In this document: positions 1-15,588 of the stretch, one piece after another
How the letters are laid out: every line of letters begins with the position of its first letter
Numbering within the stretch: the stretch's first letter is position 1
Source of the DNA: a virus
Strand: one strand, 5' to 3'
Length of the DNA: 20,418 nt
IMG/VR virus record: IMGVR_UViG_3300024358_000310
Coordinates: 1-20,418 of that record
Program-made: the position numbers and the translations under genes
Notes under the pieces: model-generated
Told to the model about the DNA's origin: nothing
Seen by the model: the letters and a program-made list of their open reading frames with translations, nothing else
The model's database searches: none

Positions 1-181
1 ATACTGCTCCCATATTCAGTTGCATCCAGTTATTGCCATCGAACACTTCCATTCGTTGCGAACTGGTATTGTATCTCATGTTACCAACGCCCTGTGAACC
101 AGAGTAGTTGTTAATATATGTGCTGGTGGATCCGCCCGATACCTGAACATATCTACCAGTGGGCATTACATTACTAATCAT
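1..181 (-). CDS. Fibre-like structural protein, N-terminal part (truncated by window edge)
   Basis: An open frame begins at ATG 181-179 and runs off the left edge, giving 60 residues of an unfinished protein. It overlaps the stop of the clamp gene by one base (TAATG), which supports the start by translational coupling. The visible part is rich in Gly, Ser, Thr and Asn and contains the pieces MRYN and EVFDGNNWMQL. From memory, an MRYN...EVFDG-W signature recurs in tail-fibre, neck-fibre and other beta-rich appendage proteins of T4-like and other marine phages, where it often lies in a short repeat module. The role is therefore a guess: a virion fibre or decoration protein. The C-terminal part, which would decide this, is outside the window. 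Confidence 0.6.
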   Translation of the reverse strand, partial: MISNVMPTGRYVQVSGGSTSTYINNYSGSQGVGNMRYNTSSQRMEVFDGNNWMQLNMGAV

Positions 182-918
182 TAGGCCGCCTGTGCTGGAA
201 TAATGTATTTGTAAGTTGCTAAACCACTGTCTAAAGTGATTTGAATAGCACCTTCATTACTTAGACTCATCTTTGTATTGTTAACATCTGCAATTTTAAG
301 AATTGCTAAGATTGGTAACACCGGCCAAGTCCAGCCGCGATCCAGTTTACCTGCTACGTTCTGTGCAAACACAAACTCACCACCGTGTGTAGAAGCATCA
401 CCAAAGATAAACTTTAGATTGCCGCCGTCTGTTTTAGCAAGGAATGTTGGATGTTCGTTGTTAGCACCTGCTTGGAAGTTGAAACGTTGAACTGCTGCCA
501 CTGTTGGTTCAATTTCTACATCCCACTTAACACCACGGAACTTGACAGTCTTCATCTTTTCGTTGATGATTTCCTGATTCATAAAACGATAGTCATTGCG
601 GAAGTCACCGTCTTTGTTTTCAAAGTGGATACCTACCGGAATAGTTTCGCCATTTCGTTCTGCTGTAGTAATATTAATTTTAGCATCGTCTTTATATTCG
701 CTGCCGTCTAACAAATATTTGAGCTTTTGTAGTTGCGGCATACCAAACACACCAATCATGTCTGGATAAGGATTAGCAGTTTCTGCCTCCATAATCACAG
801 AACGATCATCTGCCATCGAATTGATAGTAGTTTTTTCTTCTGTGCCTGTAACTTTAACAGTTGTTAGAAAGCCAAGATTTTGTGTATGGCTTACGATGTC
901 TTGTAAAATATCTTTCAT
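181..918 (-). CDS. 45: Probable DNA polymerase sliding clamp (gp45-like)
   Basis: This 245-residue protein is close to the size of T4 gp45 (228 residues), the trimeric ring that tethers the polymerase to DNA and, in T4, activates late transcription. Assignment rests on position directly downstream of the family B polymerase, on length, and on a beta-rich two-domain look with a late strand ending LATYKYIIPAQ, similar to the end of clamp subunits. The middle (about residues 110-170) has KFRGVKWDVEIEPTVAAVQRF followed by a strand-rich stretch. I see no catalytic motif, as expected for a clamp. The polymerase ends in a clamp-binding tail, which fits. The start ATG has GGAG nine bases upstream. 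A sigma70-like promoter (944-972) lies in the 62-base gap before it, so it can be expressed apart from the polymerase. Sequence similarity to T4 gp45 is weak by eye, so a structural comparison would settle it. Confidence 0.72.
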   Translation of the reverse strand: MKDILQDIVSHTQNLGFLTTVKVTGTEEKTTINSMADDRSVIMEAETANPYPDMIGVFGMPQLQKLKYLLDGSEYKDDAKINITTAERNGETIPVGIHFENKDGDFRNDYRFMNQEIINEKMKTVKFRGVKWDVEIEPTVAAVQRFNFQAGANNEHPTFLAKTDGGNLKFIFGDASTHGGEFVFAQNVAGKLDRGWTWPVLPILAILKIADVNNTKMSLSNEGAIQITLDSGLATYKYIIPAQAA

Positions 919-980: not shown

Positions 981-3650
981 TCACTCAAAATCAAAAAGTT
1001 TGCTGAATGTATTATCCGACCTTGTTGAACTGATGTCCCATTCCAAAACACCAATAAGGTTTTCTAGCTTTTCATCGATAACTGTTGTTTCCATTTCAGC
1101 ATCGTCGAACGGCAAATCTTTAAACCATTGAGGTAGTCTGAGTTCGTCTACAGGATATGCAACGCTAGTATAGCCCATAGGATTATCTTTGATCTTGCAG
1201 ACAATGACCTTTGCTCCGTCTACAATGCCCATACTATACTTGTCGTCAAACATACGTTTCAAAGTATTCCAGTTCAAAGAAGCTCTAACATGACCTGGCA
1301 TATTGGCCTTGCCTTGTTTCTTTTCTTTGGCAGCATACTCAGTGATGTTATTAGCTCTCTTAGGCGAACCTTTTTCCCAACCCGGTCTAGTTTTGAATTC
1401 TGTTCTAAAATCTGTGATATACCCTAGAATTTCTTCTTTAGGAACACCATTTAGAACACGAGTTAATACTTCGCTTAAGAAGTCTTGGATAACAACCGGG
1501 GTATCTGACCTCTTGAGATCGAGCCCCATGGCTTTAATTTTGCCTGGTTTCCCGTCGACGTCTGACCGCTTTCCTTCTTTGTCGTAGTAGAGGACTGCAT
1601 ATCGTTTTTTGGTAATGAATAGTCCTTTGGAAGCAACAATCTCGCGACCTGCCTTAATGACCTCTCCTCGAGATTTGGGGACGTGGAATGCATCGGACAT
1701 GAATTTGACGAATGTTCCATTTACTTCTTCTCCTATGGTATCATAAAGTTCAACGACACTTTCCTTAGTCCAAGGAAGTGTGCCTTTCTCGATGTCCTTC
1801 TTTAGCGTAGAATACGCAGAGAAGTAACAAGAGTCTGTGTCACCGTATATGACAGCTTTACCAACATGATCATATTCTCCGGTTATAATTTCGTTTACCT
1901 TACTTGCCATATGCTTGGCAATCTGTCTACCAGTAAGAGTTGTGGACTGTCCGATTCTATTATCAAAGAATCTACAGCCGGGATTAAGAATAGCACCATA
2001 CAGTGAGTTAAGATTAATCTTTTTAACTAACTGACGTTTATCCCAATATTCTTCCTCAATTTTATTGCCAGCCTGGATACATTCTTTTAATTTGGCCTGC
2101 ATTTCTTTACGTTCTTTATACCAACGTGCTAACAGCCCTGGAATGATTCCTTCTACTTCGTAAGTAAAAATAGTCCCGTTGGCTGAAAGCATCCAAGGTT
2201 GATTGCTTTCAAAAATTAAATCATAGATTTGTGCGGCGCTGAGAGTATCGCTACCACTACCCTCCCAATCGATAGTGATTTCTCTACCGACTTCTCTGTT
2301 CATTACAGCAGTATATTCAAGGCTACCAAAGATACCTTCCCATGCTGCCGCGAATGATTTGCCTTTGGCCATTTCTGCTTCGATATATGCTTTAGTTCCG
2401 TCTGGACGTAGTTGGCCTACAATAGTTTCCGGACCCATGTTTAATGCACGAATCGCAGATGGATACAGTGAGTTGATATCAAGTGAACCGATCCACTCGT
2501 GGATGCCTTTCTTAGGATAGGCAACATACGCACCTGCGGCCTGTGTGTCTCCGTGTTCGTCCATCTTTTTACGATTGGGAACGATCATTCCTCGTCTATG
2601 AGCTTCATTGATAATCGCCTGTTCAGTAACAGCCACAGCACCCATAGTAGTCTGTAACAGAACTGTGTTTTCGTGTGCAATCTTGTTAGCTAGATCCAAG
2701 AACTGTAATTTTTTATCTAGTTTATCTAAGAGAGCACAGTCTTGTCTATTATATTCAATGAACTTTTTAAAGTCATTGTTATAAAGCTGATCTAATGTTC
2801 CTTCATAGACAGTTTTACTTTCACCGATTTCCATTTCACCGATCGCATCCAATCGATATGTGTGGCGTTCTTCATAGGTATATTTTCTATAAAGTTCGAG
2901 ACTGTCAAGATGAACACGACCAATTAGATCATAAGTAACAGCACTCTTTCCATATTTTTCGTATTCTCTTTTCTTAGGATAACAGTTCCAAAGACAGAAA
3001 CGTTTAGTATCCTCTTTTGACAGAACTTTAGTTACACGATTAACTGTATAGGGAATATCGAAACCTTCTGAGTTCCAGCCACTTAAAACATCAGCATCTT
3101 CGATAAGATCTAAGAATGTATCTAACATCTCTGCTTCGGTTTCGAACAGCATAGTATTAGGAAAATCTTTTACAGCTTCTTTAGCTTCGATGATATTAAT
3201 GGTCTTTGGGGGAATGGCTAAACAGATTAATGTGTCCATCCATTGCAAATGAACAGCGATAGCAGTAATAGGCATAAATGCATCTTCTGGCGAAGCATAG
3301 CCACGTTCTGGATCAAAGTCCACTTCAATATCAAAGAACGCTACGTTCAGTTTTGGAGCATCGACATTTAGATAATGATCTTCTAGACAGCGATAAATGG
3401 GGTTAATATCGCTTTCGTAAAGTTTTTTGTTTGAATGTATCGCAAGTTCTTTGCGAAGTTCTTTGATATTTTTACAACTGACCTTATTAAGAGGCTCACC
3501 CTTGATAGATTGATATTTTCCTCTTGGGTCGTGATAGTAAAAAATGTGCTTGGCAGGGTAGTCTTTAAAATGCCTCTGCCCTTTGTCATCACGCTCAACG
3601 ACACGAATCATGTCATCGTCGCGATCATAGAATGCGTCAACGTAACTCAA
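981..3650 (-). CDS. 43: Family B DNA polymerase with 3'-5' exonuclease (gp43)
   Basis: This is the replicative polymerase, 889 residues against 898 in T4. All family B landmarks are visible: exonuclease I FFDIEV (D107, E109), exonuclease II SGWNSEGFDIPY (D198), exonuclease III YNRQDC (D304), polymerase motif A SLDINSLYPS (D391), motif B KKINLNSLYGA (about 543-553) and motif C IYGDTDSCYF (D604, D606). A KKRYAV stretch follows, as in other family members. The last residues, FSKLFDFE, resemble the T4 polymerase tail that binds the sliding clamp. No key residue is missing, so both polymerase and proofreading activity are expected. The start is an unusual TTG at 3650, six bases after GGAG; no better ATG precedes it in frame. 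The small membrane-protein gene ends 76 bases upstream, and the ribosome site may lie in a hairpin (3641-3673). Confidence 0.97.
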   Translation of the reverse strand: MSYVDAFYDRDDDMIRVVERDDKGQRHFKDYPAKHIFYYHDPRGKYQSIKGEPLNKVSCKNIKELRKELAIHSNKKLYESDINPIYRCLEDHYLNVDAPKLNVAFFDIEVDFDPERGYASPEDAFMPITAIAVHLQWMDTLICLAIPPKTINIIEAKEAVKDFPNTMLFETEAEMLDTFLDLIEDADVLSGWNSEGFDIPYTVNRVTKVLSKEDTKRFCLWNCYPKKREYEKYGKSAVTYDLIGRVHLDSLELYRKYTYEERHTYRLDAIGEMEIGESKTVYEGTLDQLYNNDFKKFIEYNRQDCALLDKLDKKLQFLDLANKIAHENTVLLQTTMGAVAVTEQAIINEAHRRGMIVPNRKKMDEHGDTQAAGAYVAYPKKGIHEWIGSLDINSLYPSAIRALNMGPETIVGQLRPDGTKAYIEAEMAKGKSFAAAWEGIFGSLEYTAVMNREVGREITIDWEGSGSDTLSAAQIYDLIFESNQPWMLSANGTIFTYEVEGIIPGLLARWYKERKEMQAKLKECIQAGNKIEEEYWDKRQLVKKINLNSLYGAILNPGCRFFDNRIGQSTTLTGRQIAKHMASKVNEIITGEYDHVGKAVIYGDTDSCYFSAYSTLKKDIEKGTLPWTKESVVELYDTIGEEVNGTFVKFMSDAFHVPKSRGEVIKAGREIVASKGLFITKKRYAVLYYDKEGKRSDVDGKPGKIKAMGLDLKRSDTPVVIQDFLSEVLTRVLNGVPKEEILGYITDFRTEFKTRPGWEKGSPKRANNITEYAAKEKKQGKANMPGHVRASLNWNTLKRMFDDKYSMGIVDGAKVIVCKIKDNPMGYTSVAYPVDELRLPQWFKDLPFDDAEMETTVIDEKLENLIGVLEWDISSTRSDNTFSKLFDFE

Positions 3651-3726: not shown

Positions 3727-4020
3727 TTAACTAATTAGCATTCTCACCAGCCCAAGCGTATCAATGGTGGTGAGCAAGATGTAGTTAGCCAACATGCCAA
3801 AAGATTTCCTAGTCCAAGCAGCCCAAGCATACATAGCACAACCAGCGATCCAAACAGGATATAAAGCAAGGAGTGGAGGATTGGGAACCGTGAGCGCCAT
3901 AGTGATGCTGCATCCAATTGAGACAGCCCAAGCAAGGAGCTCAATAATAAAACGTAAACGGTTAGATGCCCAATCATCTTTTATCCATTCTATTGTTGGG
4001 CGGAATATATCATTTATCAT
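3727..4020 (-). CDS. Small multi-pass membrane protein, conserved unknown
   Basis: This 97-residue protein has a charged N-terminal part (IEWIKDDWASNRLRF) and then three or four hydrophobic segments, roughly residues 24-43, 47-68 and 74-95. The pieces WIKDDWASNRLRF and SFGMLANYILLTTIDT match, from memory, a small conserved membrane protein of T4-like cyanophages and relatives that has no known function. It should sit in the host inner membrane. Its ATG follows the dsbA stop without a gap (TAAATG), with AAGGA a few bases upstream, so it is translationally coupled to dsbA and likely made early or mid infection with the replication genes. I see no enzymatic motif. A transporter-like role is conceivable but nothing visible shows it. 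Confidence 0.8.
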   Translation of the reverse strand: MINDIFRPTIEWIKDDWASNRLRFIIELLAWAVSIGCSITMALTVPNPPLLALYPVWIAGCAMYAWAAWTRKSFGMLANYILLTTIDTLGLVRMLIS

Positions 4021-4287
4021 TTAGTCCTTTTCCGGTAATTTCTTAGTTACGCCAAGGATCATTTCAATTTCATCCCACTCTTGCTCGTGTTCTTTCCAAT
4101 TGTCTTTGTGTGCAATACGAATAGCTTTATTAATCCAGCTTGGTTTGATTTGTAGTTCTTCGGCAACTGCTTTAACAGTTTCTTTTAAGCCTTCTTGTAA
4201 ATCTTCTACTTCTCGAAGCACATTACCGCCTTCATTAATGAGACGTTCTAGTTTTGCTTTTTCTTCGGGACCGTAAATTTTTGACAT
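4021..4287 (-). CDS. dsbA: DsbA-like double-stranded DNA-binding protein
   Basis: This 88-residue helical, charged protein matches the pattern of phage DsbA from T4-like cyanophages: an N-terminal EEKAKLERLINEGGNVLREV helix, then ETVKAVAEELQIKPSWINKA, then an acidic tail. The middle piece looks like a helix-turn-helix (AEELQIKPSWINKAIR, about residues 41-56). In T4, DsbA binds double-stranded DNA around late promoters and modestly aids late transcription; it is unrelated to the bacterial disulfide enzyme of the same name. It is the first gene of the dsbA, membrane protein, gene 43 transcription unit, behind its own sigma70-like promoter, with GGAG eight bases upstream of the ATG. The assignment is by remembered family pattern and size. 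Confidence 0.72.
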   Translation of the reverse strand: MSKIYGPEEKAKLERLINEGGNVLREVEDLQEGLKETVKAVAEELQIKPSWINKAIRIAHKDNWKEHEQEWDEIEMILGVTKKLPEKD

Positions 4288-4312: not shown

Positions 4313-4341
4313 ATTATATAGCCATAAAAAAAGCCGGTCAA
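4313..4341 (-). promoter_or_regulatory. Sigma70-type promoter for dsbA, overlapping a terminator
   Basis: The minus strand has TTGACC (4341-4336), a 17-base spacer and TATAAT (4318-4313). The -35 box covers the last three loop bases and the first three bases of the 3' arm of the terminator at 4326-4356, and the spacer contains the terminator T-run. The start of transcription should be near 4306, giving a leader of about 19 bases with GGAG. Confidence 0.7.
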
Positions 4342-4356
4342 TGAATAACCGGCTTT
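4326..4356 (-). terminator. Intrinsic terminator of the mosaic structural unit
   Basis: On the minus strand AAAGCCGGT (4356-4348) pairs perfectly with ACCGGCTTT (4338-4330) around a nine-base loop, followed by a run of seven T (4332-4326, the first three within the stem end). It starts 19 bases after the stop codon at 4375. The A-rich flank on the other side could let it act in both directions. Confidence 0.88.
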
Positions 4357-4374: not shown

Positions 4375-5271
4375 TTATTTTTGATCTTCTGCTAGCACGT
4401 CATACATTTCAAATACGCCGCCGTTGCGCTCATAAATTAAACCTGCATATAGATCTGCTTTCATGCCTTCGCCTAGTTTGGCTTTAGCAACACGCTCTGC
4501 CCATGTAAACAATGCTTTGTCTACAGGATCGATCTGTTGTTGACCACCACTTTCTTGAACTAGCTTAACCATGTCTTTGAAAGATAGTTTTGTTTCGACT
4601 GATTCTGCAACTACTTTCTTAGAAGTTTTTACAGACTCATTCTTTTTACCAAAATACTTTTCTTGTTTAGCACTCATGCCTTTCTTGCCATCTTTCTTGT
4701 CACCGCCTTTTTCGGCAGCAGCTTTTTTCATTGGCTCTTTCTTGTCACCGTCTTTGTCAACGTCTAAGAAATCTGGCTTAGCACCTTCGTCCATTTTCTT
4801 TTCTTTCTTGGCTTTTTTATCTTCTTTATCAGACTTCTTAGCCTCAACCATCTTTAGGAATTTGGATTTAAATTGATCAGGATCAATAGATTCTTTTTTG
4901 GCTTTCTTTGGTTTGCCGCCTTTGTTTGCCGGAGCATCTGTATCATCGTCATCTTTAGGCTCTTCGCTACCACCATACGCTGATGTAGATTTGTGAACTA
5001 AACCAGTTTTAGTTTTAGTAGCAACACCTTTCGATGTAGTTTTCTTGTCGCCTGGTTTCGCATCAGCATCGAATACTTCGTCTACTTTCTTTTCTTCTTT
5101 CTTTTCTTCGGCTTTTTTCTTAGCTTCTGAGATATAAGAAGAAGTTCCTGCTAGAACACGTAGTTGAGCATCTTCGTTAAGCTGAACTGCTTTTGGTAAT
5201 TCTGGAGCTGGGATAACTTCAATTTTGTCATCCATCGAGCTAATTTTTGTAATTAATGATTTAAAGTCCAT
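4375..5271 (-). CDS. Lys/Glu-rich mosaic protein with EF-hand-like loop, probable virion-associated
   Basis: This 298-residue protein is mostly low-complexity and very rich in Lys, Glu and Asp (about residues 50-225), flanked by two ordered-looking ends. An early piece LNEDAQLRVLAGTSSYISEA (31-50) and a C-terminal domain (about 226-298) containing DLYAGLIYERNGGVFEMYDV look familiar from marine T4-like phage proteins of unknown role. Residues 167-181 hold PDFLDVDKDGDKKEP, an EF-hand-like DxDxDG loop also common in such proteins. I see no catalytic motif. High charge, low complexity and a YISE site after which a prohead protease could cut would suit a scaffold or capsid-internal protein; that is inference. 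A late promoter octamer (5298-5305) lies upstream, and a strong terminator follows. Confidence 0.75.
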   Translation of the reverse strand: MDFKSLITKISSMDDKIEVIPAPELPKAVQLNEDAQLRVLAGTSSYISEAKKKAEEKKEEKKVDEVFDADAKPGDKKTTSKGVATKTKTGLVHKSTSAYGGSEEPKDDDDTDAPANKGGKPKKAKKESIDPDQFKSKFLKMVEAKKSDKEDKKAKKEKKMDEGAKPDFLDVDKDGDKKEPMKKAAAEKGGDKKDGKKGMSAKQEKYFGKKNESVKTSKKVVAESVETKLSFKDMVKLVQESGGQQQIDPVDKALFTWAERVAKAKLGEGMKADLYAGLIYERNGGVFEMYDVLAEDQK

Positions 5272-14689: not shown

Positions 14690-15515
14690 CTTTTATAATT
14701 TTTACCTTTTCTAACATTTCTTCAGATAAGTTCCTTGGAACCATAACTTTTATTCTTATCAACAATTTGCCTCTGTGCTTGGATCTAATATGAGGCAATC
14801 CGTGACTGTTACAACTTAACACAGTCTCTGGTTGTGTTCCTGGGGGAACAGTTACATCTAATTGTTTATTATCTAATGTAGTGATAGATAATGTAGTTCC
14901 TAATATAGCATCCCATACAGATATAGTTTGATCTATAGCTAAGTCAGTTCCGTTACGTCTGAAGAGAGGATGCTGTCTAATCATGATATTAACGATAAGA
15001 TCCCCAGGACGAAGATTTCTTATAGAGTTATCTCCCATCCCCTCGTATCGAATCTGCTGTCCATGCTCTACACCCGGAGGAATAGAAATGTTGATCATTT
15101 TCTTTACTCCTCCGGGCATACCTATTTCAGCATCAATGGTTTTTCCTTGTAGCACATCTTCTAAAGTAATTTCAATATTAACATTTAGAGTTTTGTTTCT
15201 TTGCATCGGACGCTGGCCAAAACCAAAACCAAAGTTTCCAAATAAATCGTTTAAGTCGCCTGTTCCAAAATGGAATTCGAAGGGACCTTGGTTAAATCCT
15301 CCCATGCCTGGTTGAGCATTAGGATCTCCCCCCATATCGATGATTCTTTTCTTTTCAGGATCGGTTAGAGCATCGTAAGCGGTGGATATTTCTTTAAATT
15401 TCTTTTCATCACCTCCGCGGTCAGGATGATGCTTCATAGCTAAACTACGATATGCTTTTTTAATTTCGGCGTCACTTGCGCCTCGTTTTAATCCTAAGGT
15501 AGCGTAATAATCCAT
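14679..15515 (-). CDS. dnaJ: DnaJ-type co-chaperone without zinc finger (type II Hsp40)
   Basis: The 278 residues comprise a J domain (1-62) with HPD at 30-32, a Gly/Phe-rich linker (about 62-102) and a beta-sandwich substrate-binding region (106-278), with no CxxCxGxG zinc repeats, so it resembles CbpA or type II Hsp40 in plan and is shorter than E. coli DnaJ (376). The J domain stimulates ATP hydrolysis by DnaK; no dnaK is seen here, so the host DnaK is the likely partner. It is the first gene of a unit with def and clpA. The ATG has no Shine-Dalgarno sequence: the preceding bases are the AT-rich end of a promoter, and the predicted start of transcription is the A of the ATG. An alternative start further in would damage the J domain. 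Confidence 0.96.
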   Translation of the reverse strand: MDYYATLGLKRGASDAEIKKAYRSLAMKHHPDRGGDEKKFKEISTAYDALTDPEKKRIIDMGGDPNAQPGMGGFNQGPFEFHFGTGDLNDLFGNFGFGFGQRPMQRNKTLNVNIEITLEDVLQGKTIDAEIGMPGGVKKMINISIPPGVEHGQQIRYEGMGDNSIRNLRPGDLIVNIMIRQHPLFRRNGTDLAIDQTISVWDAILGTTLSITTLDNKQLDVTVPPGTQPETVLSCNSHGLPHIRSKHRGKLLIRIKVMVPRNLSEEMLEKVKIIKDGI

Positions 15516-15521
15516 GTTATT

Positions 15522-15550
15522 ATTATATGATAAAAAAAGGACTGTGTCAA
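15522..15550 (-). promoter_or_regulatory. Perfect sigma70 promoter for dnaJ, overlapping a terminator
   Basis: The minus strand has TTGACA (15550-15545), a 17-base spacer and TATAAT (15527-15522): full consensus in both boxes. The -35 box is the loop of the terminator at 15532-15560, and the spacer includes its 3' arm and T-run. The predicted transcription start is about 15515, the first base of dnaJ. Confidence 0.85.
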
Positions 15551-15560
15551 GCAGTCCTTT
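15532..15560 (-). terminator. Intrinsic terminator of the lysis unit
   Basis: On the minus strand AAAGGACTG (15560-15552) pairs perfectly with CAGTCCTTT (15544-15536) around the loop CTTGACA, followed by T to 15532 (seven T in all). It begins about 29 bases after the stop of the small secreted protein gene. Confidence 0.9.
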
Positions 15561-15588
15561 TATTTAATGCAGATTTACTGAGCTCGAA

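Follow-up and report, generated by a model that had tools for sequence, protein, structure and literature searches.

Gene neighborhood and anatomy of the dsbA element

The window analyzed here is the whole 20,418-nucleotide stretch of IMG/VR record IMGVR_UViG_3300024358_000310, and its source is a large uncultured T4-like phage. A megablast search returned no close DNA relatives among cultured phages, and the protein relatives found in cultured phages all lie below 60% identity. Genes in the window are tightly packed, as the list of open reading frames (ORFs) makes plain. On the minus strand, a dsbA-like gene heads a unit that runs through a short ORF and a T4-type DNA polymerase to a 245-amino-acid protein, which is probably the sliding clamp (Table 1). 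The dsbA-like protein shares 46% identity with a protein annotated as DsbA in Pseudomonas phage MIJ3. Its start at 4287 is preceded by a Shine-Dalgarno (SD)-like GGAG, and an SD-like motif is found in all 37 distinct relatives described below. The upstream unit ends with a 298-amino-acid gene, and about half of the 87-base gap between the two units is occupied by a single element, which we call the dsbA element.

Table 1. Features of the window (all on the minus strand; coordinates are window positions)
Feature	Coordinates	Strand	Remarks
245-aa protein	181..918	-	follows the polymerase in the dsbA unit; PHROG 12062, without function
T4-type DNA polymerase	981..3650	-	dsbA unit; PHROG 262, E 7.5e-199
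97-aa ORF	3727..4020	-	dsbA unit; no PHROG match
dsbA-like gene, 88 aa	4021..4287	-	heads the downstream unit; PHROG 639 'transcriptional regulator', E 6.6e-12
-10 box TATAAT	4313..4318	-	from sequence and scan
Spacer, 17 nt	4319..4335	-	holds the terminator T-run, 4332-4326
Terminator hairpin (putative)	4330..4356	-	5' arm 4356-4346, 5-base loop 4345-4341, 3' arm 4340-4330
-35 box TTGACC	4336..4341	-	first T is the last loop base; TGACC lies in the 3' arm
298-aa gene	4375..5271	-	upstream unit; ends 18 nt ahead of the hairpin
dnaJ composite	15522..15561	-	hairpin 15561-15535, -35 TTGACA 15550-15545, -10 TATAAT 15527-15522

The minus strand from 4356 to 4313, as read from the window sequence, is AAAGCCGGTTATTCATTGACCGGCTTTTTTTATGGCTATATAAT (44 bases): AAAGCCGGTTA-TTCAT-TGACCGGCTTT, followed by TTTTATGGCTA and then TATAAT. 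A first-pass annotation of this DNA had placed TTGACC across the loop and 3' arm of a terminator hairpin, 17 bases from TATAAT and with the T-run in the spacer, and both the sequence and our scan agree. The stem itself was undercounted, since the 27-base hairpin has 11 pairs, one of them G-U, rather than nine. Its predicted RNA fold has an energy of -15.9 kcal/mol (z -5.2), and none of 200 shuffles folded equally well. The hairpin has the form of an intrinsic terminator, with a G+C-rich stem, a short loop, and a T-run directly behind. The same stretch has the form of a sigma70 promoter (a TTGACA-like -35, 16-18 nt, and a TATAAT-like -10), and this form is conserved. With its spacer of 17, the promoter matches the sigma70 consensus at 11 of 12 positions. 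On all the sequence evidence, these 44 bases would end transcription of one gene block and also begin that of the DNA-replication block behind it.

Such an arrangement is rare by chance. The motif TTGACN{16,19}TATAAT occurs twice in the window, in the dsbA element and upstream of dnaJ (15550-15522), while none of 100 dinucleotide shuffles held two copies (mean 0.09). When we counted promoters (at least 5/6 + 5/6) whose -35 lies inside a hairpin with a T-run, the window again held two, against a mean of 0.005 and a maximum of 1 in 200 order-1 resamplings. By this same criterion, five long relatives (G001-G005) contain 2, 2, 1, 4, and 2 nested elements, against means of 0.15, 0.225, 0.15, 0.025, and 0.075 (40 resamplings each), and phage RB49 contains none. 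The broader classes behave differently: loose promoter-like matches are not enriched (53 in the window versus 53.2 in shuffles), and neither are terminator-like sites as a loose class. Because the loose promoter class is not enriched, a generic scan alone would miss the nested elements.

Conservation of the dsbA element in close relatives

We compared the upstream regions of the best 80 of 579 IMG/VR relatives of the dsbA protein; 77 of these loci have 95 nt upstream, which collapse to 37 distinct regions. Using a hairpin test that allows wider loops and is independent of the promoter, a hairpin with a -35 box (at least 5/6) inside it and a -10 box behind it was found in 36 of the 37. The exception, L067, has kept the promoter (TTGATT, 17 nt, TATAAT) without the hairpin. 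A parsing pattern that itself required TTGA covered 35 regions, all except L067 and L078, the latter reading TTGACT. In all 35 parsed elements we found TTGAC, a 17-nt spacer, and TATAAT, the -35 box being TTGACT in 28 and TTGACC in 7.

The rest of the hairpin varies, and the way it varies is informative. Loop and inner arm come in 17 versions. At -35 position 6, 28 elements have an A-T stem pair and 7 a G-C pair, never a mixture. Opposite -35 position 4, the base is T in 32 elements and C in 3, while the -35 side stays A; opposite position 3 it is C in 29, T in 3, and A in 3, while the -35 side stays G. TTGAC is thus fixed even where a change in the opposite base costs the pair. Since the opposite bases vary and the -35 side does not, the promoter appears to hold the 3' arm of the hairpin in place. 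The first-pass annotation had proposed comparing related phages for covariation of the stem with a constant -35 box, and this pattern is seen at dsbA as well as at dnaJ (below).

Might the element instead be mobile? We scanned IMG/VR with TTGACYGGCTTTTTTN5CTATATAAT and obtained at least 119 loci, which were chosen by pattern and are therefore kept out of the conservation argument. Within 500 nt, dsbA follows in 117 of them, and in the other two (L151 and L213) it comes one gene later. With 117 of at least 119 pattern loci directly before dsbA, we rejected mobile copies as the main reading. In L151 (from 2203) the extra gene between composite and dsbA encodes about 150 amino acids, and in L213 about 200, which suggests modules inserted directly behind the promoter.

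Diverged dsbA promoters and the origin of the element

A more distant set was assembled from the best 80 of 561 relatives recovered by a profile-based search, giving 70 distinct regions upstream of diverged dsbA genes. A promoter is present in 67 of the 70 under a loose cut, and 59 reach at least 10/12, whereas shuffles average 3.2 with a maximum of 7. The arrangements are graded: 50 regions have the promoter alone, 8 are nested, 6 have a hairpin behind the -10, 3 have a terminator just upstream of the -35, and 3 have neither. These counts come from our first hairpin finder, which missed three nested cases among all the dsbA and dnaJ regions (L015, L069, and L441) because of a wide loop or mismatch. 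One of the eight nested cases, L456, stands apart: its stem is unrelated, and the -35 occupies the 5' arm and loop, according to its computed fold.

Because diverged dsbA genes mostly have a sigma70 promoter without a nested hairpin, the promoter probably came first, with this phage group later overlaying a terminator on its -35. The cultured jumbo phages Phosso, MIJ3, and Atu_ph07 are similar in that, by eye, their dsbA-polymerase unit is preceded by TTGACT, 17-18 nt, and a TATAAT-like -10; unlike the window, they show no hairpin over the -35 by the same inspection. Nesting has a measurable price. Of 59 non-nested dsbA promoters, 43 have A as the sixth -35 base; none of 35 nested ones does, so the consensus base at this position is forfeited to the hairpin.

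In a separate observation from another phage group (L448, L449, L450, L452, L454, and L458), a hairpin with a T-run lies between the dsbA -10 and the SD motif; it perhaps attenuates transcription or protects the RNA 5' end.

The second element, upstream of dnaJ

The dnaJ composite is a second case with a different build, and the dsbA element is no copy of it: as the first-pass annotation held, the stems differ, and the -35 also sits in another hairpin register. From the best 80 of 97 dnaJ relatives (49-100% amino-acid identity) we obtained 51 distinct regions (L368-L447). Our first hairpin finder scored 40 of these as nested, with a spacer of 17 in all 40. The stems vary widely, while the loop is TTGAC in most. 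Covariation was evaluated on 23 of 26 distinct elements; L393, L433, and L441 were omitted, as their hairpin is in another register. In the 11-pair helix, 91.3% of cells are paired versus 82.6% after shuffling, and the covariation score is 0.317 versus 0.159, neither value being reached in 500 shuffles (n=23). At 6 of the 11 pairs both sides have changed, a weak excess that 20 of 500 shuffles equaled (n=23), and further pair types are no commoner than in shuffles (244 of 500 reach the observed value; n=23).

Loss of the promoter provides another line of evidence. With the wider-loop, promoter-independent test, 47 dnaJ regions have a hairpin: 39 of them carry both -35 and -10, none the -35 only, 3 the -10 only, and 5 neither. 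The boxes are jointly present more often than expected (Fisher p 3.7e-5, uncorrected for relatedness); the relatives are not independent, so such p-values are too small. In L427, L431, L429, and L444, the hairpin is kept and the promoter is gone, both boxes having been lost. Since the -35 and -10 are lost together, the TTGAC in the dnaJ loop would act as a -35 box and not as a mere loop. Among the eight hairpins scored without a -35, some fit joint loss poorly: L387 (TTGATT) and L435 (TAGACG) seem to be weak promoters that missed the cut, and L383 has no -35 yet retains a -10-like match.

The dnaJ collection contains some further variants. L446, upstream of dnaJ in G004 and scored as 'neither', reads TTGACA, 17 nt, TATAAT, with the -10 inside the hairpin and a T-run after it. 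This is the mirror arrangement, in which the -10 and not the -35 sits in the hairpin. On other contigs of up to 321 kb (e.g., L253, L255-L258, and L260), GGACTGA-AAAA-TCAGTCC is followed by a short T-run and TATATAAT before a different gene. These loci are without a -35, and they perhaps join a terminator to a promoter of another class. Among 80 loci examined, out of 118 stretches, 51 are not before dnaJ, and most of those are of the GGACTGA-AAAA-TCAGTCC type.

How general is the design?

Two such borders in one window had been taken to indicate convergent design and a general way in which this phage joins transcription units. Convergence gains support from cases with other stems, namely L456 and two additional composites in G004, which precede metallophosphoesterase-like and nucleotidyltransferase-like genes (named by eye from the translations). 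Generality does not hold up: the five long relatives have 1-3 composites among 6-27 terminators. By genome, this differently cut scan found 1, 2, 2, 3, and 2 composites among 14, 27, 6, 13, and 11 terminators in G001-G005. In the largest contig, G002 (281,658 bases), 2 of 112 sigma70-like sites (at least 5/6 + 5/6) are nested. Terminator-promoter composites thus stand at the dsbA and dnaJ borders but are not the phage's general device; the nested design recurs, and it is mainly a device of these two borders.

Relation to known terminator-promoter units

The closest known counterparts are the PeSLs (promoter-early stem-loops). PeSLs come in many similar copies in variable (hyperplastic) regions, and module exchange by recombination has been proposed for them. 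They reportedly occur in the T4-like phages RB49/phi1, PST, and nt-1, with accounts said to come from Arbiol in 2010 and Comeau in 2014. PeSLs and the dsbA element alike combine a stem-loop terminator with a sigma70-like early promoter in one short unit at T4-like gene borders, and in some pairs of relatives (4 of 12) the dsbA element may adjoin an exchanged module. The differences lie in geometry and copy number. In the dsbA element, the -35 lies inside the terminator hairpin itself, and the spacer is taken up by the T-run. In RB49, 9 sites instead have the hairpin upstream of the -35, 12 have it within the spacer with no T-run, and 10 have it around the -10; the 12 spacer sites, scored as nested by our script, start at the last bases of the -35. 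The stricter test yields no RB49 site of the dsbA kind, with the hairpin across the -35 and the T-run in the spacer. Where PeSLs have many similar copies, each long relative of our phage has 1-3 mutually unlike composites at fixed borders beside core genes. To judge from these comparisons, the dsbA element is a compact, strongly conserved putative variant of T4-like terminator-promoter cassettes (PeSLs).

A terminator with a sigma70 promoter close by is common in bacteria and has been linked to polymerase recycling (PMC11347151). The two signals are close neighbors there too, but the bacterial ones lie apart, whereas those of the dsbA element share bases. We found no description of a -35 box inside a terminator hairpin in the literature searched, which does not prove that none exists.

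Proposed function and alternatives

We consider it very likely that the nested element unites a terminator of the upstream unit with a sigma70 promoter of the dsbA-polymerase-clamp unit, the promoter being the older part. RNA of the upstream unit would fold into the hairpin, and transcription would stop in the T-run. The same DNA would supply the -35 and spacer of the promoter, from which host RNA polymerase would start about 7 nt after TATAAT, and the new transcript would cover dsbA, the 97-amino-acid ORF, the DNA polymerase, and the clamp. In a compact genome, the purpose might be to keep read-through from reaching the early replication unit. We infer this termination, initiation by the host polymerase, and insulating purpose from the anatomy and conservation described above. 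As the predicted stop point falls between the -35 and the -10, initiation and the arrival of an upstream polymerase would be mutually exclusive in time. A promoter-bound polymerase would cover the T-run, so termination and initiation may hinder each other.

How much does the overlap itself matter? That a hairpin fell on a promoter by accident has practically no probability in our estimate: the lack of enrichment of loose promoter-like and terminator-like classes would suit it, but 0.005 nested elements are expected per window and two were found, and conservation in 36 of 37 distinct relatives refutes it. We see even chances for plain compaction, in which terminator and promoter are each needed and have been squeezed together, the overlap having no role of its own. 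The tight gene packing is in keeping with this, as are the graded arrangements at diverged dsbA genes (promoter alone in 50 of 70, a terminator just upstream in 3, nesting in 8, a hairpin behind the -10 in 6). However, nesting is near-invariant at dsbA and present in most dnaJ regions, despite the lost sixth -35 consensus base at dsbA. Such retention argues for a benefit or a trap that is hard to leave, and it is no proof of a role for the overlap.

Two further alternatives concern exchange and coupling. As has been proposed for PeSLs, the element may be kept as a short homology through which modules on either side of it are swapped, a reading we regard as rather doubtful. In a pairwise comparison of 45 loci (990 pairs), 12 pairs share at least 97% of 900 nt downstream, and 4 of these share less than 80% of 300 nt upstream; L020 and L026, for example, are alike from TTGAC rightward except at -35 position 6 and differ leftward. 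The extra gene between element and dsbA in L151 and L213 also favors exchange. Yet the opposite discordance, upstream alike and downstream not, occurs in 0 of 9 pairs, the elements are not scattered (117 of at least 119 pattern loci lie within 500 nt of dsbA and the other two one gene off), and exchange alone would not need TTGAC-17-TATAAT. Alternatively, a polymerase stopped in the T-run might stay and re-initiate at the next promoter (recycling termination), so that upstream transcription would feed the dsbA-polymerase unit. The predicted termination point between the -35 and the -10 is suggestive, and bacterial RNA polymerase is described as able to hold on to the DNA once it has terminated at a hairpin, and then to start again from the closest promoter (PMC11347151). 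The overlap is not required for this, however, since re-initiation is described there over up to about 1000 bp (PMC11347151), and the elements are few per genome; reading these sequences, we think such coupling unlikely.

If the preferred reading of a shared terminator and promoter is right, the dsbA element is a natural part of 44 bp in which a terminator and a predicted strong promoter share bases, conserved in a large uncultured phage group. The trade-off is visible at single bases: the sixth consensus base of the -35 is given up to the stem, which in turn yields pairs to keep TTGAC. The element raises a defined question: is a promoter usable by a polymerase that has just stopped on it? It would also serve to mark a transcription-unit border in genomes lacking RNA data.

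Late promoter motifs and possible leaderless transcripts

The T4 late promoter TATAAATA is absent from the window, where 1.64 matches would be expected, while upstream regions of genes in the relatives are enriched in the wider motif nnTAAATA. At dsbA, TAAATA occurs in only 2 of 37 distinct regions, and we therefore claim no late promoter there. Upstream of dnaJ, TAAATA, the core of the T4-type late promoter, occurs in 49 of 51 distinct regions. In the 40 nested regions it lies 9-11 nt ahead of the -35, and it is also present where the sigma70 promoter was lost; it is perhaps an overlapping late promoter with its start in the 5' arm of the hairpin.

These strands could be joined in a wider reading, which we hold to be quite improbable as a whole: an independently repeated dual-use element of one geometry, combined with operon coupling and late-promoter escape at dnaJ. 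The geometry would be a -35 in a terminator hairpin, a T-run in the spacer, and 17 nt, as at dsbA, dnaJ, L456, and the two G004 loci. A polymerase stopping on the T-run would be left on the next promoter and re-used, coupling two operons physically. At dnaJ, a late promoter nnTAAATA 9-11 nt before the -35 would start transcription inside the 5' arm, and late transcription would thereby escape a terminator that blocks read-through.

In each of the 40 nested regions, only 5-9 nt separate the end of the dnaJ -10 from the ATG (window 15515-15561; L368-L447), and an SD-like motif is present in 2 of 51 dnaJ regions versus 37 of 37 at dsbA. Given this short distance and the rarity of SD motifs, a sigma70 transcript of dnaJ would be leaderless. 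Upstream of 832 ORFs in G001-G005, both TAAATA and TATAAT peak in two distance ranges ahead of the ATG: 0-9 nt (56 for TAAATA, 32 for TATAAT) and 20-29 nt (47 and 23, respectively). Many genes of phages of this type may have leaderless early and late mRNAs.
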